Assembly: GCA_950295325.1 (NCBI GenBank)
Contig: OX485809.1
Coordinates: forward strand, 8,680,001 to 8,744,000
Direction of reading: 5' to 3'
Length of the DNA stretch: 64,000 nucleotides
Origin: Polytrichum commune
Taxonomy: Eukaryota > Streptophyta > Polytrichopsida > Polytrichales > Polytrichaceae
Program-made: the position numbers and the translations under genes
The notes under the pieces: generated by a model
What the model saw: the letters and a program-made list of their open reading frames with translations, nothing else
Told to the model about the DNA's origin: nothing
The model's database searches: none
Part shown: positions 9,621 through 52,722 of the stretch, one piece after another
Layout of the letters: the number at the start of each line of letters is the position of its first letter
Numbering within the stretch: position 1 is the first letter of the stretch

Positions 9621-11120
9621 GGAATAAAGGAGCATCAATTCGAAATATCACTTGCTTATATGAGAAAATATGATTTAGGATTTCTCTTGGTCATGACTAT
9701 GGACTAAGGGCTCTAACCATGAGAAATCCACATCTCTTTTTGGAAGTCTTGGTCACACGATATAATGTAAAGTTGACTTAGATCATATGAGAAGGAGCTC
9801 CATAACTTTTATAATGTCTACGTGGAAGCTCCTATTAAAATAAAGTAAAAGATCTCAATTCTTGTGTGTCCCCTAGTGCAGTGTTAATCAATTATTCATG
9901 ATGTACGTTGGTACCCAGTCCGACAAAAAAACTCTCCCAAAAGGAGATGCCAAATAACGATGGAAAATATAACCACGTTATATTGAAAATATTTAACTTA
10001 TCCTTTCTCAATTGCTTTTTTTTTTTTGCAAAATTGCCACTTTTCCCAAGAATATGTGGATGTTTGTGGGTAATGAAGTTGTAGCATAAGATGCAGACGA
10101 GGAGCTCATATTGCAATCAAATACATTCAATCTCATCTCCAAACTATATAGGTTAACGGCCAATTGCAAGGCTATGTCGAACTTGGTTAAAATCTTCCTT
10201 TTAACTACACATAGATAGTGAACTAGATTGAAAATTTGTCCAACCAAGAGAAGTTGCAAAATCAAACAATCTACCATTTCTTGCAACATATTTTAGTAAG
10301 CTTTTCCAAGACATGTAGGAAGTTCAATGAAGAAAATGTGTTATTAAGAAAAATTTCACCCTTTATAAATAAATTTGGGGTTAAAGTACTTTTCCATGAG
10401 GGTCATTTACAAATACATAGAAAGAGGCTACCAGGGCTCCCTTGCCCTACATCTCAAGTTTGTCATTATCCCACATCTCGGGGGGTGCACTGTACTAAAC
10501 ATGTACGAGTATACGTGAGTGCACATGAGGTGTATTGATTTGGACCTTGCCATATTACGTATACATATGGTATACATGTTATAATTTATAGTTATGTACA
10601 TATATGAAAGGCCTTTAAAAAGTATACAATAATTGTACTTGTATGGTAGTGTTACTATACTACATATCATAAGTTTTCATATTGGATGAAATTAGGATTA
10701 ACTAGGATTAACGAATTTTGTTAGCAACCTTATAGGGTAGTATGAACCATGTACAAGGTATCAAGGTAATATCGGGGAAAGAGGCAGTATTAGGGTTCTG
10801 AAATGATTCGTTCAGCTCAAAGTAACAAGGACCCTTTTCCCCTCCCATCCCTAGGTTTTTGTTTTCTCTTTTTGTTGGGCGCCGAAGGTTTTTGTTTTCT
10901 CTTCTGGCATAGCCTGCTTCTTTTGCCGACAACTGCTTTACTTTTCCTTCTTTCACCTGTTGCTTCCAGTGCTTCTCGGCGTCCCTGCTGCCGTGGGAAT
11001 CACCGAAAGTCCTGACATTGTCATGGCCTCGTTCTGAAATTCCCTCTCTATCAAATGCAAAGTTTGTTGTGGCTTATGTAATGGTAGGGGAGTCTAGAAT
11101 TTTAAAAAATACACTTGTTA

Positions 11121-11651
11121 TGGGGCATTCCCACTTGACATTAGTTAGAAGTAGTTTTAGTCTAAAAGCGGTTTTAGTTATCTAGGGTTCACACATACGG
11201 CTCTTTTTAGTGCCGAGCCTAGGTGGCAAATGATGTGGCATGGCTTAAAAGTGGAGGTTTTAAGCCTCAACCACCGACCCTCCCATCGGTACCTAAACAT
11301 GAGGCAAGAATATAGGAACTTTAAAAGTGTTGCCTCCCACCCTTGTGATTGGTTGCTTTTTAGTCTTAGCTATGAGGGCACGAGGAGCTTCATTAACAAA
11401 AACCGATGGCAAGATAGGTGAGTAGTAAGGCATTTGGGGATGGGACAAAAACTACCCAACATTCATTGCTTGGTAGATAAAACCATGAACATGTGTGAAA
11501 GCTACTTAACTAAAACCTACTTGAAAATCTCCGGAGCAAGTTCTTGTAGGTGCATTGGGATAGTCGGATGCCTCCGCTATAACCGAGGGAGCTTTACCCG
11601 GTTCTTAGGAAATACTTTGGGTCTTAACTAAAGTCAGGTGGGAATGCCCCA
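11121..11651. mobile_element. PIF/Harbinger-type MITE, 531 bp, nested in the TIR element
   Basis: TIRs begin TGGGGCATTCCCACTTGACA on the left and TGGGGCATTCCCACCTGACT on the right, reading inward. TTA flanks both sides (11118-11120 and 11652-11654). The second copy of the host element has the uninterrupted phrase cacttgttagtcaattgaa, reverse-complemented near 44270-44290. Insertion at TTA with duplication is therefore shown directly. It belongs to the same family as 8384-8888. Confidence 0.93.
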
Positions 11652-12154
11652 TTAGTCAATTGAATGGCAATCCTTCTTTGTGTAAAGATCGGTTGACTCA
11701 AATTAGAGTTGGCATATTATATATGAAGCCTAAACTCCTGAGTGCTGGAAACCATGACACTTTGTTAAAGCTTGGTTGTGACTGTGTTATGTGTTTTTTG
11801 AACACACCTGAAGCTAAAACTGTGAAAAAATGAGGTAGGCCAAAAAAATCTACTCGAGTCAAGGTTTGGTTTGTTGGGAGAGTTTATAGGATGCGGAGGA
11901 AGTTTGGTAATCGTGGAGTGGAGTATAGGGATCCAATTGACTTGATGGACCGTCCATCAAACGTGAAGATTGGTTTATGTTGGTATCAAAAAGGGGCTAA
12001 CAACAAGTGGACATATGATCTTACTGATCATTTGATGGTAGACTTAGAGACAATAATTGCATTGGCTATAATGAAATATATTGGTGAATCAAATATTTAT
12101 GAGTTACATCCGGGAGATGAAAAAATTTCCAACGACTTTGTTGATGAAAGCTAG
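11652..12154 (+). pseudogene. Cargo ORF of TIR element copy 1, AT-hook-like motif, broken
   Basis: The frame matches the ORF of the second copy: a stretch with KLGCDC..CFLNTPEAKTVKK, then GRPKKSTRVKVWF, MRRKFGNRGVEYRDPIDLMD, and an end at ...GDEK..NDF.DES. GRPKK next to basic residues is the core of an AT-hook, a DNA minor-groove binding motif. A TGA at 11831-11833 replaces the CGA found in copy 2, and the MITE splits the upstream part. The conserved tail still reads open from 11834 to the stop at 12154. No transposase motifs are seen, and I do not recognise the protein. It may be captured host sequence. Confidence 0.6.
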
Positions 12155-12549
12155 GATATTTTGTTATACATATAATAGGGGTTGATTGTTGTTCAAAAAT
12201 ATATTTGTATACTTATGTTAATGACTATATATGAATGGATGTTTTTTTGTGTATACATATTGTTACTTGTATATTTATTGTTGCAATTGTATGTGTATTA
12301 CTTCATTTCACAAAAAATAACTTGTATATAGGGGGTTTTTAGAGTATGCAGTGAACGCACGTGATTCTAGGTTTTAATGAAAGGTGCACCCCCCGAGTCC
12401 CACATACATTTTGGCTACTACTCCACTTGTACAAAGGGTAGATCATAATTCATAAATGAATACATGTACATTGATTGCTTACTAACGAACAATCCAAATT
12501 GATAATTTTTTAAGGGAAAAAATAACAAGATGAAAAAATACTTACACCT

Positions 12550-33730: not shown

Positions 33731-34267
33731 GACAATAGACAAACCAACACCCCCCCCCCCCCTTACAAACATACAAAGAACTCACCTTCCGAAAGGAAGG
33801 CAAAACACCTTAACCTGCATCATGGATAACCATGATCAATTCAAGGTCAATAACTTGAATTCAATGGACTCACATTCACGCTGGTACATAACTCCAACGT
33901 TATTATTCTTTTTCTTTTTCTTTTTTTGGGAATGCATGGATCAATGTAGTTTAGAAGTGGAATCCACCCAAACTAAATTGATCTACATATTCCCATATGA
34001 AGCTGAATTGTTTCATGTTGCAGTCCTCAAGGTAGGTTTCAATCGGCTCAAACACAATCAACACAAAACCTGCAATAGGGTGGGAATAACATCGTGGTTT
34101 GAAACCGCATTTATTGTACATATAACCAGAATCTGCCAGTTTTTTCTTTATTGTTTTTGTTTCCGAGGGAAATCCTTTGCTACACGCCAATTCACATATA
34201 ACTTAGTACACGGAATTCAGACTTGCATTCCAAGAGTTACTGAACGTAGACCGGAAGTATGTGTAAG
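33731..34267. other. Spacer with poly-C and poly-T runs, no supported gene
   Basis: It contains a 14-base C-run near 33749 and a T-rich stretch near 33900-33930. A 179-aa frame, 33822-34361, crosses it but has no protein-like features beyond a phenylalanine run read from poly-T. Confidence 0.5.
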
Positions 34268-34705
34268 CGTCGTTGTGGATAGTGAAACAGCAAATTTCTA
34301 CTCCAGCTTTTGCACAAAACTGTTGTCTCCGACACGAACATCATCTACTTACACTTGCTAGGTATATGCTACGTTTTAATTTCAACACTCCCCAAGGCCT
34401 GCAGCAATTCTACTTCAAGAGGTGAAGTATGTTACAGAGAGATGTTAAGTATGTTACAGAGAGATGTTTGTGTGATCACCTTATGGTCCACCGCATCGTT
34501 GTAGACAGTGAAACGACAAAATTTAACTCCAGGTCTTCCATAAAAACTGTTGTTTTTGAAACGAACATCACCTACTTACACTTACTATGCAATATGGGTA
34601 TCCTGGTTTCAACACTCCCGAAGGCCTAGAGCAATTGTACTTCGAGAGATGAAGTATGTTACAGGGAGACGTTTATGTGATAACCTTATGTTCCATCACA
34701 TTGAG
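34268..34705. repeat. About 230-bp tandem duplication 3' of the minus-strand histidine-rich gene
   Basis: Unit 1 is about 34268-34495 and unit 2 about 34496-34705. Both carry gtcgttgt.ga.agtgaaac near the start, then acgaacatca.ctacttacac, then aggcct..agcaatt.tacttc and gaagtatgttacag. Unit 1 also contains a 22-bp direct duplication at about 34424-34467 (aagtatgttacagagagatg). It lies directly downstream of the minus-strand stop codon and may form its 3'UTR. Confidence 0.8.
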
Positions 34706-34720
34706 CATTCAGTAGTTTCT

Positions 34721-35395
34721 TCAGGGCGAGGGGTTGATGTTGTCTTTGTCGTTGTTTTTCTCGTCGAGTGCCATGACAGCCAGTGCTTCATTGGCTTCCT
34801 CCACGCCCTCCGCAGTGACAGGGACGAGGTTTTCGACGTCGTTGATCGGTACATTAGTCGTGGCGGAGCTGCCTCTCTCACCAGAATGGCAACAACGATC
34901 AGGAGGTGAAGCGCATCGCCTCATGCCGACATGGCGGTTCAAGTGACCGAAATGATGACATCTCTTAACTATATGGTGGCCGCCATGGCGTTTCTTATGG
35001 CCACAATGTCGGTGTGGAACAAAGTCGAGAAAAATCATCTCGGTGATAGCAGGCCCTTGAGAAGGACCTGAATCGTCGTTTCCGGTTTCTGGATGGAGGC
35101 AATGCTCTTGTTCAGAACTGGATGATGGAACCATGCCGACATGGCCGTTGAATATCAAGTGGCCATGGTGATAGTGGCTGTGGTGACCATGATGGCCACG
35201 GTGGTGCCGCCCGACAAATCTCGGAGGTCCAGAAGAAGTTGGACAATGGTGAGGATGGCTGCCATGAGGAGGAAGGACAAGTGGATGTGATCTGTGGTGT
35301 AATTTGAAGTGATGGTGAGGGCGGAGACGACATCCATAACCGTGTTCTCTTTCTCCCGAAAACGGCGTTAGTATCATCGTGTCTGCAGCCACCAT
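34721..35395 (-). CDS. Histidine-rich protein, 224 aa, intronless, paralogue 1
   Basis: A single uninterrupted frame runs from ATG at 35395 to the stop at 34721. The protein has about 35 histidines (near 16%), in clusters such as RHHRGHHGHHSHYHHGH. The amino end is M.AADTM. A central island reads HCLHPE...GPAITE, followed by an F.P element. The carboxyl part reads HSGERG..ATT..PI.DVE and ends in MALD...D.NPS. These blocks recur in the divergently transcribed neighbour (37398-38462), while the His-rich segments between them differ in length and order. There is no signal peptide or membrane helix. His-rich proteins often bind metal, but nothing here proves that. The leader has two imperfect copies of one segment. 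I recognise no family. The conserved protein ends argue for a real gene. Confidence 0.7.
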   Translation of the reverse strand: MVAADTMILTPFSGEREHGYGCRLRPHHHFKLHHRSHPLVLPPHGSHPHHCPTSSGPPRFVGRHHRGHHGHHSHYHHGHLIFNGHVGMVPSSSSEQEHCLHPETGNDDSGPSQGPAITEMIFLDFVPHRHCGHKKRHGGHHIVKRCHHFGHLNRHVGMRRCASPPDRCCHSGERGSSATTNVPINDVENLVPVTAEGVEEANEALAVMALDEKNNDKDNINPSP

Positions 35396-35972
35396 AATTT
35401 GATTTTAAGGCACGAAAGCTCCTAGAGAAAATTCCTTAAAAGAGTCTCACAACAACGCGATGCAACTGGTACTGAGGAGAAAAGTCTGATTTCGAGATGG
35501 GCTATGGTATTAAAGAGGAGGACTCAGATAAGTCCCTCTGATCGCAATAGCTTCCGATCGGAATTGCGAGGCAAACTTATTAAGGAGAGCCAACCTGGGA
35601 AGAAATTTGGTTAATAGGCAAGCTTCTAGTCTCCCTTTGAAACTTCGCAAGAGAAAGAGTTCTCAAATTAAAGACTCTCAGCACAAAGTGCAAGAGATAA
35701 AGAACAACCTGATCTTCAGATGGCTGTGGTGTTGACGAGAGAATGGTGCCGACAAGTCCCGTGGCAATAACAGCTTCAAAAATTGTGAGGCAGTTTCGTT
35801 AAAGAGCGGATTTCTTCGTAACAAAGGAGGAGAATCTTCCCGAACTCAACGATGAATTGCTGGTGTGAACACACGGGGCTTTCATAGGGGGTTCGGAGGA
35901 GAGCAATCGTGCTACTCAAGGCTCCCTTAAATAAAAAAAGAGAGTCGGTGATCAGCCTCGTGACTTGTGTGG
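35396..35972 (-). promoter_or_regulatory. Leader and promoter of paralogue 1, internal duplication
   Basis: Read on the minus strand, this matches the upstream region of paralogue 2: ACGAGGCTGATCACCGACTC at about 35965-35945, CTCCTCCGAA, and ACACCAGCAATTCATC. At the TATA position there is TATGAAA (35880-35886) instead of TATAAAA. The segment GCCTC.CAATT...AAGCT.TTG...GGGACTT occurs twice, at about 35790-35745 and 35575-35525. This makes the leader about 130 bp longer than that of its partner. GTGAGACTCTTTTAAGGAAT near the start codon is conserved in both. Confidence 0.65.
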
Positions 35973-36941
35973 CAAGCATCGTATCATTAGGAGTGGGCCA
36001 GACCGGAAAGGAAGCTTCCACACTTCTTGCTGGTATGTATACTACTTGTGCTTTCATTTTAACAGGTATTAGCATATTTCAATAAGAAAATGAATAGTTG
36101 TTAGATCAATCATCGCATCTTGACGTGCAAGGATTAATCTTCTCACTTATTCGACCTGGAAAGTTTCTATGTAAGTAGTGTGTGGTCATTTGCAGGATTA
36201 TGAGTAAGTTCCAATACACCGAAGTCACTAGAAAAATCATGTTTAGAAACGAACTGGAACCATGGAAGTTTGATGGCCAGGAATCCTGTGCTTGAAGGGC
36301 TCTAATCTGTGGAGTTGTTTCCAAGGTTCTTCACGTCTGGTAGATTTGGTAATTTTAATTTAGACAAGAAATACAATAATGCGATTAGGTGAGTAGAGCT
36401 TTTCCATAAAGATGTATCAGATTTTCCAATTAGGGTTTCCCCATGACAAGAACTCTGCAATGTCGAGTCTGCGATTGTTCTTTGTGCAATAAACTTCTCG
36501 GATTTTATGAATTTTAGAAACCTTTGGTACGTAGAACTTCAACTCTGAGCCAATTGATGTCGCCAAGAAATTGGTCAGTGAATGTGAAGTTCAGGAATTA
36601 TATTGGAAGCCTTCTTCTATGTCTCATCAATTGGACTTTTCCCTCTCGGCAGGGAAGAGCCTCACGCAGTCCCAGATTATTTGAAACTTGTTCCTGTCCT
36701 TTTTGGTGCAATTGTCGATAAAATATTTTGGAAGCTGATCAAACACTGCAATCCTTACTATATTTGAGGTCTTCCATATATTCTGCTTGTTTGCTTTATG
36801 AGCTAAATATCGATTGTTTCCAATTTTAGCTGATTACAATAATGAGTAACTACGTTCTGACTCTGCACGCAAGCGAAAGAATCCATAGAAAAGTCTCCAA
36901 GTTCAAGAAATTACCTCTGACGCTCTGATATAGTTCTTGGG

Positions 36942-37397
36942 ACACAAGTTACGAGGCTCATCACCGACTCTTGTTCTTTTCGTCCGGAGGACGAGCCTTG
37001 GCTACCACGTTTTGCTCCATCTCCTCCGAAGTCTATAAAACTCCCATGCCCACACCACCAATTCATCTTTGCTTCTCAGGATTTACATCCTCCAGCTTCT
37101 GATTACTTCTCATCTTACTCCTCGCTGTAAGTACAGTACCTTCAATCCTGGTGAGTGCGCTCTTTGTTAACGGAGAATCCCTCTTTTTCTACAAGTCTGC
37201 CTCCCAATTCTGAAGCTGCTATCGTCGAGGGACTTGTCTGTCAATAGCATAACCATCTGGACATCAGGTTACTCTCCTGTCAGTGCGATTCGTCGAAGTG
37301 AGACTCTTTTAAGGAATTCCCTCTCTTGCGATACCAGATCTCAGTTGGTTTCCGGGTTGTTTGTTTGTTTTGAAAGTGTAAGCTGCATCCAGTATCC
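36942..37397 (+). promoter_or_regulatory. Promoter and leader of paralogue 2
   Basis: It is homologous to the paralogue 1 upstream region from ACAAGTTACGAGGCTCATCA at about 36948 to GTGAGACTCTTTTAAGGAAT near 37298. It holds a TATA box (37034-37040), a CCACGT element near 37005, and a six-base inverted repeat TCGTCC-GGA-GGACGA at 36980-36994, about 40 bp before the TATA box. That inverted repeat is absent from paralogue 1. Confidence 0.65.
37034..37040 (+). promoter_or_regulatory. TATA box of paralogue 2
   Basis: TATAAAA in the context GTCTATAAAACTCCC, 358 bp before the start codon. The aligned position in paralogue 1 reads TATGAAA. Confidence 0.7.
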
Positions 37398-38462
37398 ATG
37401 GCTGCTGCAGACACGATGATGGTGGTGAGCCCCATGGGTGAAGGGGGACGCGGTCATGGTTGCGGATTACTCCATCATGATCGCCTCCGCCCACACCAGC
37501 ACCGCTTCAAACCTCACAGACCGCATCCGCTCCTCGTCCCTCCTCCCCATGGCAGCCTCTGTCCACCTTCTTGTGGACCTCCCAGGCCTTTCGGGTGTCA
37601 CCACCACCCTGGCCATAGCCATGGTCGACACCTGATCCCCCATCACTCTTGCCCTCATGTAATGGGAGGTGAGCTGATTGGCTTGGATGATCAGGATCCT
37701 ATCGTGCCTCCTCATCATCACCATCACCCTGGACCTCCGGCTTTCGCTGGATTTCTTGGCCCGCACCTTCACCACCCTGGTCACCGCTCTCACCACCGCC
37801 GCCATGGCCGCGTTAACCCTGACGCACATGACGTCGGTGGGCTTGATCCCTCGGTGGCTGACTGCTCCTTATCTGGTTCTGAAGAAGAGGATTGCCTCCA
37901 TCCAGAACCCCGGAATACCGATGGATTCCCCCTGGGGGGTCCTGCAATCACCGAGAACTTTGTCGAGAATTTCCGGCCGCCGCCGCCGCCCCCTCCTGCC
38001 CCCATGCATATGATGATGATGCACTGGGGACATGCAGGTCGATTTATGCATGCAGGTGAGCTACCGTTGCGTCATAGGGGTAGCGAAACTCCACACGACT
38101 TATTAGCTGACTTAATACGAATACGCGATGCGAACTCTTCCTTCGATCATGACCTCGAAAAGGCCCTCCGGATTCGTTTACTGCGACATGGTGGCCGCCG
38201 CATGAGGCACCATGGCGGCAGGCGATGCACTTCAGTACCTCATGGTACTCCTCATGGTTGCCACCCTCACCCGGATGCCGCAGTTCTCATGCGTGGCCAT
38301 TCCGGTGAGAGAGGCAACATTGCCACGACTAGTGCACCGATCGATGATGTCGAAACCCCTAACCCTGGAGCTGCAGAGAAGGGTGTGGAGGACACCAATG
38401 ACGCACTGGCTCTCATGGCACTCGACGACACTACTAAAACCGACGTCAATCCCTCGCACTGA
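37398..38462 (+). CDS. Histidine-rich protein, 354 aa, intronless, paralogue 2
   Basis: The frame is uninterrupted from ATG at 37398 (context ATCCATGG) to the TGA at 38460-38462. There are about 47 histidines (near 13%), with runs such as PPHHHHHPGPP. Then come a CLHPE...GPAITE island, a seven-proline run (FRPPPPPPPAP) and an MHMMMMHWGH stretch. An extra segment of about 50 residues (ELPLRHRG..LADLIRIRD..EKALRIRL) has no counterpart in paralogue 1. The end repeats HSGERG..ATT..PIDDVE, ALALMALD and D.NPS. A CAG then GTGAGC donor-like site at about 38053 could mark an intron, but the open frame does not need one. There is no signal peptide or membrane segment. The family is unrecognised; metal binding is only a guess. 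Other-frame ORFs over this gene are shadows. Confidence 0.72.
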   Translation: MAAADTMMVVSPMGEGGRGHGCGLLHHDRLRPHQHRFKPHRPHPLLVPPPHGSLCPPSCGPPRPFGCHHHPGHSHGRHLIPHHSCPHVMGGELIGLDDQDPIVPPHHHHHPGPPAFAGFLGPHLHHPGHRSHHRRHGRVNPDAHDVGGLDPSVADCSLSGSEEEDCLHPEPRNTDGFPLGGPAITENFVENFRPPPPPPPAPMHMMMMHWGHAGRFMHAGELPLRHRGSETPHDLLADLIRIRDANSSFDHDLEKALRIRLLRHGGRRMRHHGGRRCTSVPHGTPHGCHPHPDAAVLMRGHSGERGNIATTSAPIDDVETPNPGAAEKGVEDTNDALALMALDDTTKTDVNPSH

Positions 38463-38529
38463 TCCATGATACTACTATACACATAATCATATTGTATAGT
38501 GCAATCACTTGAACATCTGATCCCTACAA

Positions 38530-38668
38530 CGCCGATCTTCATTCTCTTCGTATTTGTGCACATAAATATCCGTCTGCAAGCTACCATGTTGTTGTCTATA
38601 CCAACATTGTGGAAGCTCTGGAACAGGACATTGATGTGTTCCGCCCTGACTATACTGCATGATCCACT
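38530..38668 (+). pseudogene. Short coding-like fragment related to the decayed gene at 26.5-28 kb
   Basis: One plus-strand frame reads a run ending SYHVVV..., then EALEQDIDVFRP, and a stop. This resembles YHIVVLESDIDIF in the segment at 27922-28049. It is about 45 codons with no start. It lies just past the histidine-rich gene, in another frame. The similarity is short, so it may be coincidental. Confidence 0.28.
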
Positions 38669-39439
38669 TTGGCCTTCACTGGAATTCACGTGAAATTTTA
38701 CCATCTGCTCAATTATCACTACAATAATATGCGGATTTAATCCGCGACTTTCCCAAACTTGTGCTGCATTTGTATGAATGGTGTATGAAATTCATTTTTT
38801 GGGAGTGCATAATCTGTAGTTAAATTTTGTAGGACTGACTGCACGTTTTCTTCCGGAGGAGTGCACTCATCCATCTGAAGTAGTTTATATCTGCTTGCTT
38901 GTGTAAGAATTCTTGAATCGAAAAGCTGAATCTTAAGGTCAGGTTCTCCTTTGTGTCAGTATGGTTTTTGCTGTGGCTCTTGAGTACATTTAGGTTACGC
39001 ATACACATACCAGCAAGATATGAAACCGGCTCTTGATCATGCGCATACAATTTCGCAACTTATACTCTGATCACAATTTTCAACCTCTTAAGACGGATGA
39101 ATTGCAACTTCTCCTCGATAGTAGGAAACCCCATGATCCATCCAGCATATTGAAATTAGGTCTTCATTATTGACAATTGGAACTGCGTTGATCTGCACTA
39201 GTAGCCTGTTATCTGCGTCACGAATTTCCATATTCTTGCACTTCGAATGTTCTGGAGTTATACTGTGTCTAGACTCTTCAATGCCTGGCCCGTCCGTATA
39301 CATGAAAAATTGCTACAACATCTTATCAATTGCACACAACATCACACAATAGAGTTATCTTTCAATTCCACCGGAGATTTGGGTCGGAAGTAGGTTGTTT
39401 TGCATACAAAACTTTGCATGTTCGGTATGTTTTTGGTGC
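38669..39439. other. Spacer, no supported gene
   Basis: The minus frame 39303-39088 has a protein-like run (KCKNMEIRDADNRLLVQINA), but no splice partner or family match was found. The frame 39050-38820 is not convincing. Confidence 0.35.
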
Positions 39440-43536: not shown

Positions 43537-44955
43537 CTCGGGGGGTGCACCTTTCATTAAAACCTAGAATCACGTGCGTTCACTGCATACTCTAAAAACC
43601 CCCTATATACAAGTTTTTTTTTGTGAAATGAAGTAATACACATACAATTGCAACAATAAATATACAAGTAACAATATGTATACACAAAAAAACATCCATT
43701 CATATATAGTCATTAACATAAGTATACAAATATATTTTTGAACAATAATCAACCCCTATAATATGTATAACAAAATATCCTAGCTTTCATCAGCAAAGTC
43801 GTTGAAAACTTTTTCATCTCCCGGATGTAACTCATAAACATTTGATTCACCAATATATGTCATTATAGCCAATGCAATTATTGTCTATAAGTCTACCATC
43901 AAATGATCAGTAAAATCATATGTCCACTTGTTGTTAGCCCCTTTTTAATACCAACATAAACCAATCTCCACGTTTAATGGACGGTCCATCAAGTCAATTG
44001 GATCCCTATACTCCACCCCACGATTACCAAACTTCCTCCGCATCCTATAAACTCTCCCAACAAACCAAACCTTAACTCGAGTAGATTTTTTTGGCCTACC
44101 TCGTTTTTTCACAGTTTTAGCTTCAGGTGTGTTCAAAAAACACACAACACAGTCACAACCAAGCTTTAATAAAGTGTCATGGTTTCTAGCACTCAGGAGT
44201 TTAGGCTTCATATATAATATGCCAGCTCTAATTCGAGTCAACCGATCTTTACACAAAGAAGGATTGCCATTCAATTGACTAACAAGTGTACTTTTAAAAA
44301 TTCTAGACTCCCGTACCATTACATAAGCCACAGTTGACTTTGCATTTGATAGAGAGGGAATTTCAGAACGAGGCCATGACAATGTCAGGACTTTTGGTGA
44401 TTCCCACAGCAGTAGTAACCACAGGGACGCTGAGAAGCGCTGGAAGCAACATGTGAAAGAAGGAAAAGTAAAGCAGTTGTCGGCAAATGAAGCAGGCTAT
44501 GCGAGAAGAGAAAACAAAAACCTTCGGCGCCTGACTAGAAGAGAAAACAAAAACCTTCAGCGCCCAACAAAAAGAGAAAACAAAAACCTAGGGATGGGAG
44601 GGGAAAAGGGTCCTTGTTACTTTGAGCTGAACGAATCATTTTAGAACCCTAATACTGCCTCTTTCCCCAATATTACCTTGATACCTTGTACATGGTTCAT
44701 ACTACCCTATAAGGTTGCTAACAAAAATCGTTAATCCTAATTTCATCCAATATGAAAACTTATGATATGTAGTATAGTAACACTACCATACAAGTACAAT
44801 TATTGTATACTTTTTAAAGGCCTTCCATATATGTATGTAATTATAAATTATAACATGTATACCATATGTATACGTAATACGGCAAGGTCCAAATCAATAC
44901 CCCTCTTGTGCACTCACGTATACTCGTACATGTTTAGTACAGTGCACCCCCCAAG
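43537..44955 (-). mobile_element. TIR element copy 2 (14-bp TIR, 8-bp TSD), uninterrupted
   Basis: The ends are CTCGGGGGGTGCAC at 43537 and GTGCACCCCCCAAG ending at 44955, with one mismatch in 14. The perfect 8-bp direct repeat CTTGGGCC flanks it at 43529-43536 and 44956-44963. It is 1419 bp, inverted relative to copy 1, and lacks the nested MITE. It has one extra unit of a purine-rich direct repeat (agagaaaacaaaaacct) near 44500-44590, three units against two in copy 1. Confidence 0.88.
43780..44382 (-). pseudogene. Cargo ORF of TIR element copy 2, broken by stops
   Basis: The frame is open from about 44382 to 43948, then a TAA at 43947-43945 replaces the CAA (Gln) of copy 1. A second stop follows where copy 1 has a Glu codon. 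The reading resumes to a TAG at 43782-43780. The AT-hook-like core KKRGRPKKSTR is intact here. An intact ancestor would have had at least about 200 residues. The first codon of the open frame is not ATG, and the true 5' end, possibly spliced, is unknown. No transposase motif or family is recognised. Confidence 0.6.
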
Positions 44956-48158: not shown

Positions 48159-48557
48159 TTAGAGGGGAAATAGCTTGTTTGTTTTAGTTAGGTTAGGGGA
48201 ACTTAGGGTAGCTTAGTTGTTTTAGAAAGTAAGTCTTTGTACATCCGTCCGGCGCAATAAAATGGTTAAAACAGACTCTTTAGCCAGGCCGGAACTGGAC
48301 CGAAAATACCATTAGATAACTGCCAGTTCCGGAGTGGCCGGAATGATGGCTGTTGTACAGAAACAAAACGGTTACCACAAACGGTTATGAAGCCGGACTG
48401 AAGGAGGAAGGAGGCACTTAAGGAAGTCAACCGCCCCCTTAGAGCCATTTGCGCTGTGCGGTATTGCAGAGAGAAAGAGTGGTGAGGAATTCTTTTCGAA
48501 TCATCAGCAGTTGAATTGCTGGGATTCTGTTTTGGGACGGATAGGGTTTGTCGCACG

Positions 48558-50577
48558 ATGCCGGAGGTTAGGGAGGAAGATGAGGTCTTCCCGATTCCAC
48601 TTAGGAATGTAGTGCCCGCCATTCCAAAGCGGGAGTCGGAGATGAGAGAATTAATCGAAGACCTCTCCTGGATGGGATGCGAAGGTCTCCTTGCAAAACC
48701 CTGGAACCTACAGAACGAGGCGATGCTCAGGGAATTTTTGATCGAGAGAGGGAATCAGTGGGAGAGGACAATGAGGCAGGAGCCGGAACAGTGGACCGTA
48801 GAAGTGTGGGCGGATGTTTATGGGTTCGCACCGAAGAAGGGAGAAGGGTGGGCAAGCTGGAAGGACACTTACTTCGTAAGAAAATTCAGAGCAGAGCATG
48901 ATCCGAAGGATGGGTTCTATCCGGTAGATTGCAGAAATCCTAGGGAGCGTAGGGTAATAGAATTTCTCCTCCCAATCCTCTACCCAGAGAAGCCCAAGAG
49001 GTTGAGTGTTACAATGGCCAACACCATCTTCGGGGCACTGTCCAGAACACGGGCGATCAATTGGGGGCGACTCATCCAAGCATTGGTGGAGAAATCGATC
49101 CCCCACATCGCCAAGAAACCCTCTCCTCTCTCCTCGTACATTCTCCACCTCTACCAGCGGAATGGGTGCATCAACGAGGCGGAGGAGGATGCCTTAACAA
49201 TTGCAGAAGACGATGTCGCCTACAAGCTGGGACCGGAGATCGATCCAACGGAGGCGGGAACAGAGGAGTTGTTGAGTGACCTCACCGTCCCTGAGCCGCC
49301 TCCTGCTGCACCCACCCCCGATTCAAGGAAGACAGCTGCTCCTCAGCCCCGAGACGAGGCAGGCCCAAATTAGGGGACTGCACTGGAGGGACATCGACTT
49401 GTCCTCCTTCGAGTATCTGCAAACCCCCTTCAAGCGAGTCCGGGATGAGCTGACCAACCTTCAGAATCAGTATTTTAGGCTGGAGCACATCACCCGCGGC
49501 GTAAGCAGGGTGATGGACAACTACGAGCCCGAAAACATTCTCCGGGAATTGGCCAAGAAGACAAACCGGTCAAAAGTGGACGCACTGGAGACTGAAAAAG
49601 CTCAATTGGCCGTGCAGGTGGCAACGATGACTTAGGAGCTTGTGCAAAAAAGCGAGGAGATCTACCGCTATCAAGCGGAACATACAGTAGTGCTGAATCG
49701 AGTCCGGAACCTAATCGGACATCCCGGAGAGATTGTCAACAAGGCTCATCTGTATGACAAATTCATGGAAACGGCGGATCCCTCCTCGGCCAGACAGACC
49801 TTGCGGATCATGGTCAAGTACTCGAGGTCGATGAAGGACCTACTGAGGGAAATACAGAAGTTCCTACCCCCGCGCGGAACCCCGAGGCGGATGATAGACC
49901 CAGGCATGCCCGGATCACCCACGGCCAAACTTTACAAAGTGATAGGTGAGGTAGAGTTCGTCCCAACCTCCCAGGCCATTGCCAAGCCCAGCCAAGCCGC
50001 AGGGGCATTGAAGCAGCAAAAATCCGGCAGAGTTCCGGATCGTGAGAAGACTCCAATTCCGGAAAAGACCCAGTTGCCTCCGATTCGAAGAAAGAGTACA
50101 GAGCGCTCGGCGATGTCAGGGCGGGTCCAATCCCCAATGCCGGAAAGGGCTAAGACCCGGGAAAGGGCTAGGACTCCGGAGCGAGCCAAAACCCCGGATC
50201 GCGGGAAGGCCCCTATTGCGTCAGTTTCGCAGCCGCCCACACCCGACTGCATGATTGTGGAACCATGGGGGCACCCACCTCCTCAAGCATTGACGATCCG
50301 GAAGCGAAGGATCGCCCCAATCCCATGTGACCGGAATAGGGAGAGGACGGTGGAAAACAATCATTCAGCACGGCAGGGCTCCAGAAAGAAGAAGAAGAAG
50401 AAGAAGAAGGTGCCTATGAGGAGGTCACCCCCTCTCCTAGCATGCGCAAGATCTTCACCCGACTCCAGGAGGGAGGCTCCTGACTCCAGGTGGAGGGGCG
50501 TCTGGAATCAGTGGGCCAGCAGGCCAGCAGGCCAATCCAAGGTCGGGACGGCGACAAAGAAGCACCGAACCACTTAA
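48558..50577 (+). pseudogene. Retroelement-type ORF with coiled coil and basic tail, one frameshift and one stop
   Basis: Frame one runs from ATG at 48558 (context GCACGATGC) to 49373. It holds the pattern W..DVYGF....G..W, RRVIEFLLPILYPEKPKRL, MANTIFGALSRTRAINWGR and SSYILHLY. This is typical of 'plant transposon protein' domain ORFs carried by non-autonomous retroelements. The reading then shifts frame near 49300-49370 and continues 49276-49635 with a coiled coil (KRVRDELTNLQNQYFRL). A TAG at 49633-49635 breaks it before the tail. That tail (49642-50577) has PERAKTRERARTPERAKTPD repeats and eight lysines in a row. Intact, it would be about 670 residues. The family link is by pattern only. 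Confidence 0.6.
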
Positions 50578-51930: not shown

Positions 51931-52722
51931 CCGGATTGGGTTGATCACTTTTGAGGTGTAGTGGGAGTGAAGCCTCGCTATTTCGTTTGCATGTATAACT
52001 TCTATGTAGGAAAACCACTGTTAAGACTAGGTAAGGTTGCGAGGGGTACTCAAACTTACGCCATCCGACCTTCTGATGAGGTCCCACAGTACATGGGAGG
52101 GGTAGTACAGAAAGCGATACGGGTCGCTCAATTATCCCAGATTTATTAGACCCCAATCACCTGTAGCTGGAATGGTCTGTCGGAAGAGGGAGAAAAACCA
52201 GATAGGTTAAGATGCTGGATCGGGTTGATCACTTCTGAGGTGTAGTGGGAGTGAAACCTCGTTGGTTCGTTTGCCTGTATAATTTCTATGTGGGAAAACC
52301 GCTGCTAGGACTGGGTAAGGTTGCGAGGGGTACTCGAACTTACGCCATCCGACCTTCTGATGAGGTCCCATAGTACCTGGGAGGGGTAGTACGGAGAGCG
52401 GTACGGGTCGCTTAGTTATCCCATATTTATTAGACCCCAGTCACCTGTAGCCGGAATGGTCTGTCGGAAGAGGGAGAAAAACCAGATAGGTTAGGATGTT
52501 GGATCGGGTTGATCACTTCTGAGGTGTAGTGGGAGTGAAACCTCGTTGGTTCGTTTGCCTGTATAACTTCTATGTGGGAAAACCGCTGTTAGGACTAGGT
52601 AAGGTTGCGAGGGGTACTCGAACTTACGCCATCCGACCTTCTGATGAGGTCCCACAGTACCTGGGAGGGGTAGTTTGAAGAGCGGTACGGGTCACCCAGT
52701 TATCCCATATTTATAGACCTTG
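51931..52722 (+). repeat. 284-bp tandem repeat, nearly three units
   Basis: The phrase ggttgatcact..tgaggtg begins at 51939, 52223 and 52507, a period of exactly 284 bp. Units 1 and 2 are complete. Unit 3 ends near 52722 at a catatttatagacc variant. Units are about 90-95% alike by eye. They lie 3' of the retroelement-type ORF and share its CCGGA wording, so they may be its untranslated tail. Confidence 0.88.

Follow-up and report, generated by a model that had tools for sequence, protein, structure and literature searches.

The window analysed here, a stretch of 64,000 nucleotides (nt) of DNA (C7:8680001-8744000) from a genome of 408 Mb in 64 contigs, contains two histidine (His)-rich genes, denoted A and B, which are arranged head to head:

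34721..35395, minus strand: gene A, a single open frame encoding 224 amino acids (15.6% His)
37398..38462, plus strand: gene B, a single open frame encoding 354 amino acids (13.3% His, with one run of five His)

The first-pass annotation, made from the letters of the sequence, had described these genes as a head-to-head pair of His-rich paralogues, and this description was borne out with respect to coordinates, strands, lengths and composition. The two proteins are identical at 114 of the 220 aligned residues, and the alignment contains all the shared segments that had been pointed out, namely, the N-terminal M.AADTM, CLHPE...GPAITE, and HSGERG...VE...MALD. In tblastn searches, the C-terminal parts of A and B matched each other with E values of 2e-12 (query A) and 9e-17 (query B), and a search of the window with B recovered gene A at 9e-17 and 6e-9. 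Gene A is closely followed on its 3' side by a direct repeat of about 180 nt (34267-34446 and 34493-34673), the two units of which are 79% identical.

A third copy of the gene, denoted C, is located outside the window, at a distance of about 45 kb on the left side of B, and its protein product is 98% identical to that of B; the alignment of B and C also delineates the duplication unit that these two copies have in common:

C7:8671343-8672404, minus strand: gene C, the third copy
36907..39196, plus strand: duplication unit common to B and C

Searching the genome with B at E ≤ 0.001 recovered three places, B, A and C, and the last 55 residues of B, at E ≤ 10, likewise found three loci; the C-terminal block is common to all three copies. 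With A as the query, seven matches were obtained at E ≤ 10, five of them within the A, B and C loci; the remaining two, on contig C2, were weak (E 0.32 and 1.19) and contained stop codons. The genome search scores the best candidates only, and the copy counts are accordingly lower bounds.

The suggestion of the first-pass annotation that the proteins belong to no known family was also upheld, with no significant relative detected in any of the searched collections. A scan against Pfam returned no match for A and, for B, only DUF6988 as the best hit (E 0.31, 11.3 bits against a cut-off of 27); a search of the Protein Data Bank with B as the sole query gave no match at E ≤ 1; and none of the 30 pattern matches in GTDB genomes or the 58 in IMG/VR was confirmed. 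The accessible parts of the literature on moss, liverwort and bryophyte His-rich or orphan proteins contained nothing recognisable as this family. In our view, A, B and C form a genuine family that is uncharacterised and probably functional; its probably disordered His-rich proteins are of a known general kind but fall within no known family.

The similarity between A and B is not limited to the coding sequences (CDS). It extends into the upstream DNA, beginning ahead of the predicted promoters (at 35986 and 36926), and the final matching piece stops at both stop codons, past which A and B show no match at E ≤ 0.01. Because the homology runs from ahead of the promoters to the stop codons, the unit that was duplicated in inverted orientation is the promoter together with the leader and the CDS. 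The following elements were delineated upstream of the two genes:

35941..35961, minus strand: promoter footprint of A, ACGAGGCTGATCACCGACTCT, containing ACCGAC
36951..36971, plus strand: promoter footprint of B, ACGAGGCTCATCACCGACTCT, containing ACCGAC
37034..37039, plus strand: TATAAA of B, present in C as well
35396..35840, minus strand: presumed leader of A, 445 nt without an ATG, start site assumed
37066..37397, plus strand: presumed leader of B, 332 nt without an ATG, start site assumed

The two footprints conform to a 21-nt pattern, ACGAGGCT[CG]ATCACCGACTCT, and the block is also found in C; no further match was detected in the window at up to three mismatches, the pattern having been derived from these very sites. 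In B and C, the ACCGAC within the footprint begins 71 nt upstream of the first nucleotide of TATAAA. ACCGAC is the core of DREB-type elements. The hexamer RCCGAC is not rare, with 23 occurrences in the window against 16.7 expected and 9 of 100 shuffles reaching 23, so that the link of the footprint to stress is hypothetical. A single bidirectional promoter shared by A and B is not favoured, given that each gene has a separate footprint and that these lie about 1 kb apart. Two segments of the A leader (35826-35751 and 35578-35424) match, in diverged form, parts of the B leader that overlap each other (37162-37324). The promoter and leader DNA of B retrieved only B and C from the genome, and A was not recovered.

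The first-pass annotation had also noted that long frames survived at this locus, and the comparison with neutral expectation strengthens this point. In simulations of frame survival under neutral mutation (3000 runs per divergence setting), at 0.1, 0.2, 0.4 and 0.8 substitutions per site, the frame of A stayed open in 23%, 6.7%, 0.6% and 0.07% of the runs, respectively, and that of B in 15%, 2.1%, 0.27% and 0%. Both frames are open at a synonymous divergence between A and B (dS, Nei-Gojobori) of 0.88, or about 0.44 per lineage, with a nonsynonymous divergence (dN) of 0.40. The gaps in the BLAST alignments of the two CDS add up to multiples of three or cancel, and those in the promoter alignment are of 5, 1, 4, 2 and 2 nt. 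The absence of ATG from the presumed leaders, the start sites of which are assumed from the position of the TATA element, is unusual by dinucleotide shuffling (P 0.013 for the A leader and 0.014 for the B leader), and among window segments of the same length as each leader, only 0.04% (for A) and 0.23% (for B) are free of ATG. The frames of A and B look preserved by selection because they are open at a divergence that usually breaks frames under neutral drift, their indels are in frame, the presumed leaders are free of ATG and the promoter footprint is shared. Several details detract from this reading: A has no TATAAA, with TATGAAA at the corresponding place; the footprint pattern was drawn from the sites that it finds; the two leaders are partly homologous, hence the two ATG tests are not independent; and an ATG occurs in B directly after TATAAA, ahead of the assumed start site.

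The composition of the proteins appears to have been retained more faithfully than their sequence. The aligned part contains 34 His in A and 26 in B, with His in both proteins in 19 of the 41 columns that have it in either, and His makes up 15.7% of the 134 residues of B that have no counterpart in A. Forward simulations starting from B (distances of 0.6, 0.9 and 1.2; a dN/dS ratio, omega, of 0.56 or 1; window base frequencies; 300 runs per setting) produced mean His counts of 9.0-15.6 over the six settings, and none of the 300 runs in any of them reached the 34 His of A. When equilibrium frequencies of the CDS or of third codon positions were used instead, the means over four settings were 13.5-16.2, with none of 1000 runs in each reaching 34. 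No retention excess was found for Gly, Pro, Arg or Asp (200 runs each). These results, all obtained on one protein alignment, suggest that His content was kept while fewer than half of the His positions persisted, and from this we infer selection on histidine density. The case is weakened by the reverse simulation, from A towards the 26 His of B, where an omega of 0.56 gave P values of 0.043, 0 and 0.003, an omega of 1 gave 0, and the four settings with CDS-based equilibrium frequencies gave 0.054, 0.008, 0.044 and 0.005; by Glu, the retention of which was also borderline (P 0.01-0.095; 200 runs); and by repeat expansion of CAC/CAT, which could be a partial source of the His richness.

Selection on the amino acid sequence itself was assessed by maximum likelihood under a codon model. 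Over all 220 aligned A-B codons, omega was 0.557, and twice the log-likelihood difference (2dlnL) from omega 1 was 8.55. The individual blocks weaken the case for constraint: none differed significantly from 1, whether the C-terminal block (54 codons, omega 0.957, 2dlnL 0.01), the N-terminal block (69 codons, 0.657, 1.48), the middle block (22 codons, 0.46, 1.73) or the pooled shared blocks (145 codons, 0.695, 2.36). The proportion of synonymous differences (pS) between A and B is 0.27 in the C-terminal block, below the values for the N-terminal part (0.51) and the alignment as a whole (0.52). Because synonymous divergence is also low there, the likeness of the C-terminal blocks does not prove protein constraint; we read this block as younger DNA, perhaps left by an old conversion event involving the two genes. 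The claim that the conserved ends are functional islands was thus not sustained: in the dN/dS check that the first-pass annotation had itself proposed, the C-terminal value was close to 1, at low power. Functional islands as the only cause of the conserved blocks were rejected on the combination of a C-terminal pS of 0.27, against 0.52 overall, and an omega of 0.96. Conserved ends around diverged middles can stem from uneven homogenisation of DNA rather than from functional islands.

Such homogenisation is more clearly discernible between B and C. On the left side of the unit, B and C differ at 12 of 94 sites (36907-37000), 2 of 64 (37001-37064) and 14 of 286 (37065-37351); in the core, at 0 of 46 sites (37352-37397), 11 of 1065 in the CDS and 3 of 335 in the first 335 nt past the stop codon; and on the right side, beyond this near 3' flank, at 20 of 201 and then 34 of 184 sites. 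The low-divergence core (37352-38797) thus differs at 14 of 1446 sites (about 1%), compared with 14% farther out, and the near and far 3' flanks (3 of 335 against 54 of 385 sites) are sharply distinct (Fisher P 1.4e-12). These data are best explained by an old duplication, the core of which was recently homogenised by gene conversion, an explanation with good support. Synonymous or RNA-level constraint is less likely as the cause of the B-C similarity because the low divergence continues for 335 nt past the stop codon, where A and B show no match, and then jumps; a point in favour of such constraint is that synonymous sites (4 of about 252) differ from the segment 37001-37351 with a P value no lower than 0.063 (0.004 against the whole of 36907-37351). 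The 11 coding differences comprise 7 nonsynonymous and 4 synonymous changes, and the B-C omega of 0.54 (or 0.63 in the codon-model fit), not different from 1, lends no support to protein constraint. The possibility that C is an assembly duplicate of B was rejected in view of the mismatches at both ends of the unit (12 of 94 sites on the left, 34 of 184 on the right). Capture of the B-C unit by a mobile element was dismissed as well: no clean ends or target-site duplication could be seen by eye in the printed borders, which fade into divergence.

An AlphaFold model of B, computed from a three-sequence alignment, had a mean predicted local distance difference test score (pLDDT) of 38.1 and a predicted template modelling score of 0.17; 316 of the 354 residues scored below 50, and none reached 70. 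Two helices were predicted within residues 232-267, and no helix of four or more residues in the C-terminal block. The products of A and B are probably intrinsically disordered; as a caveat to this reading, low pLDDT from a three-sequence alignment is weak evidence of disorder. The computed net charges at pH 7 are +1.5 for A and -3.4 for B, rising to +26.6 and +30.3, respectively, at pH 5.5. Both proteins are hydrophilic (grand average of hydropathy, GRAVY, of -0.82 and -0.74) and contain 8 and 9 Cys, respectively, and the longest His run is three residues in A and five in B and C.

As the best explanation of these observations as a whole, held tentatively and at somewhat less than even confidence, we propose that A, B and C are an orphan family of His-rich disordered proteins that function as stress-regulated buffers of metal and pH. 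Under this scenario, local inverted duplication of a promoter-leader-CDS unit would have given rise to the family, followed by partial homogenisation through gene conversion, well supported for B with C and conceivable for A with B in the C-terminal block. The three genes would be expressed, and their products, presumably disordered and under selection for His density, would most likely be soluble, low-specificity binders of Cu/Zn/Ni-type ions and pH-responsive polyelectrolytes. A DREB-type dehydration or cold promoter might switch the genes on, which would keep free metal ions and injury to macromolecules in check as water is lost. A putative role in desiccation or metal handling would be of interest for the stress biology of spore-bearing plants. 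A bolder version, which we consider doubtful, is that of a clade-restricted spore-plant family selected for His density and not for sequence, that is, a disordered pH or metal sensor in which positions are free and ectopic conversion keeps two inverted copies near-identical. If true, this would provide a clean natural test of composition-only selection; selection on His density, if confirmed, would be a small, self-contained case of what selection preserves in a disordered protein, with position nearly free and His content not.

The alternative that fares best, albeit unlikely, is that these genes are an orphan family under weak constraint and in the course of being lost, with frames kept open mainly by chance and gene conversion and no important role. 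The block omegas that are not significantly below 1, the preponderance of nonsynonymous changes between B and C (7 of 11), the replacement of TATAAA in B and C by TATGAAA in A, and the visible B-C homogenisation all fit this possibility, but the persistence of both frames at a dS of 0.88 with in-frame indels, the specific retention of His, the ATG-free presumed leaders and the conserved promoter footprint do not. We regard as quite unlikely that the proteins are nuclear or condensate regulators, directed by their His runs to nuclear speckles or condensates, with the C-terminal NDALALMALD segment serving to recruit a partner. The five-His run in B and C and the presence of the supposed partner-recruiting block in all three copies are compatible with such a role, and there is a precedent in a survey of human proteins with His runs of five or more, in which accumulation in speckles is reported for 15 of the 22 nuclear proteins identified (PMC2644819); however, His runs in A do not exceed three residues, no Pfam domain was found, and the C-terminal block has an omega near 1 and no predicted helix of four or more residues. 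A dehydrin-like protector of membranes or enzymes, with His-rich parts contacting lipid head groups or metals as the His-rich flanks of dehydrin LTI30 interact with lipid heads (PMC10358736), would suit the hydrophilic, His-rich, probably disordered products and the ACCGAC footprint but is improbable: neither A nor B was matched by the dehydrin profile PF00257 at E ≤ 1 (no search aimed specifically at the Lys-rich K-segment was made), and the two matches that this profile gave in the genome are both on another contig, C4.

As a light check on the remark of the first-pass annotation that other genes in this DNA are decayed, ten other open reading frames, nine in the window and one to its right, were scanned. 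Three of them matched Pfam at E ≤ 0.01: the frame on the right is an alpha/beta hydrolase, and the two within the window are RVT_2 reverse transcriptase fragments, one of which scores below the cut-off of the family. We take the RVT_2 frame to be of the copia type. Together with radial-spoke matches above the family cut-off in a profile search of the genome, this frame suggests that the source is probably a plant with swimming sperm; plants with flagellated sperm are bryophytes, lycophytes, ferns, or relatives of cycads and ginkgo. The following features were observed in the surrounding DNA:

C7:8752428-8753015, plus strand, right of the window: open frame matching alpha/beta hydrolase PF00561 (E 1.4e-17), which we assume to resemble the KAI2/D14 receptor family
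C7:8660009-8667220, plus strand, left of the window: two very long frames (1356 and 1047 codons), in phase with each other and interrupted by a single stop codon, resembling a Ty3-type retrotransposon
10477-12397 and 43537-44955: pair of inverted repeats separated by about 32 kb and made up of two pieces (89% and 97% identity), with a frame containing GRPKKSTRVKVWFVG in both copies; probably a mobile element
48486-50577: GC-rich segment (about 52%) holding two long frames, of 295 and 313 codons between stops, neither of which matches Pfam at E ≤ 0.01
51933-52719: matches itself when shifted by about 284 nt (93% identity) and 568 nt (90% identity), and is hence probably an array of tandem 284-nt repeats

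Two known systems offer parallels to the proposed buffer family, neither of which establishes the function of A and B. Human His-tract proteins of nuclear speckles share with B and C the presence of a five-His run, unlike A, where no run exceeds three; a further difference is that no Pfam domain was found in A or B. The same survey suggests that His repeats diversify gene duplicates (PMC2644819). Unlike dehydrins, A and B do not match PF00257 at E ≤ 1. Nevertheless, they resemble the His-rich dehydrins (HIRD, LTI30 and citrus CuCOR15) in their probable disorder, high His content and possible stress promoter, and the binding of metals and lipids reported for the His-rich stretches of dehydrins (PMC10358736) is for A and B a conjecture.

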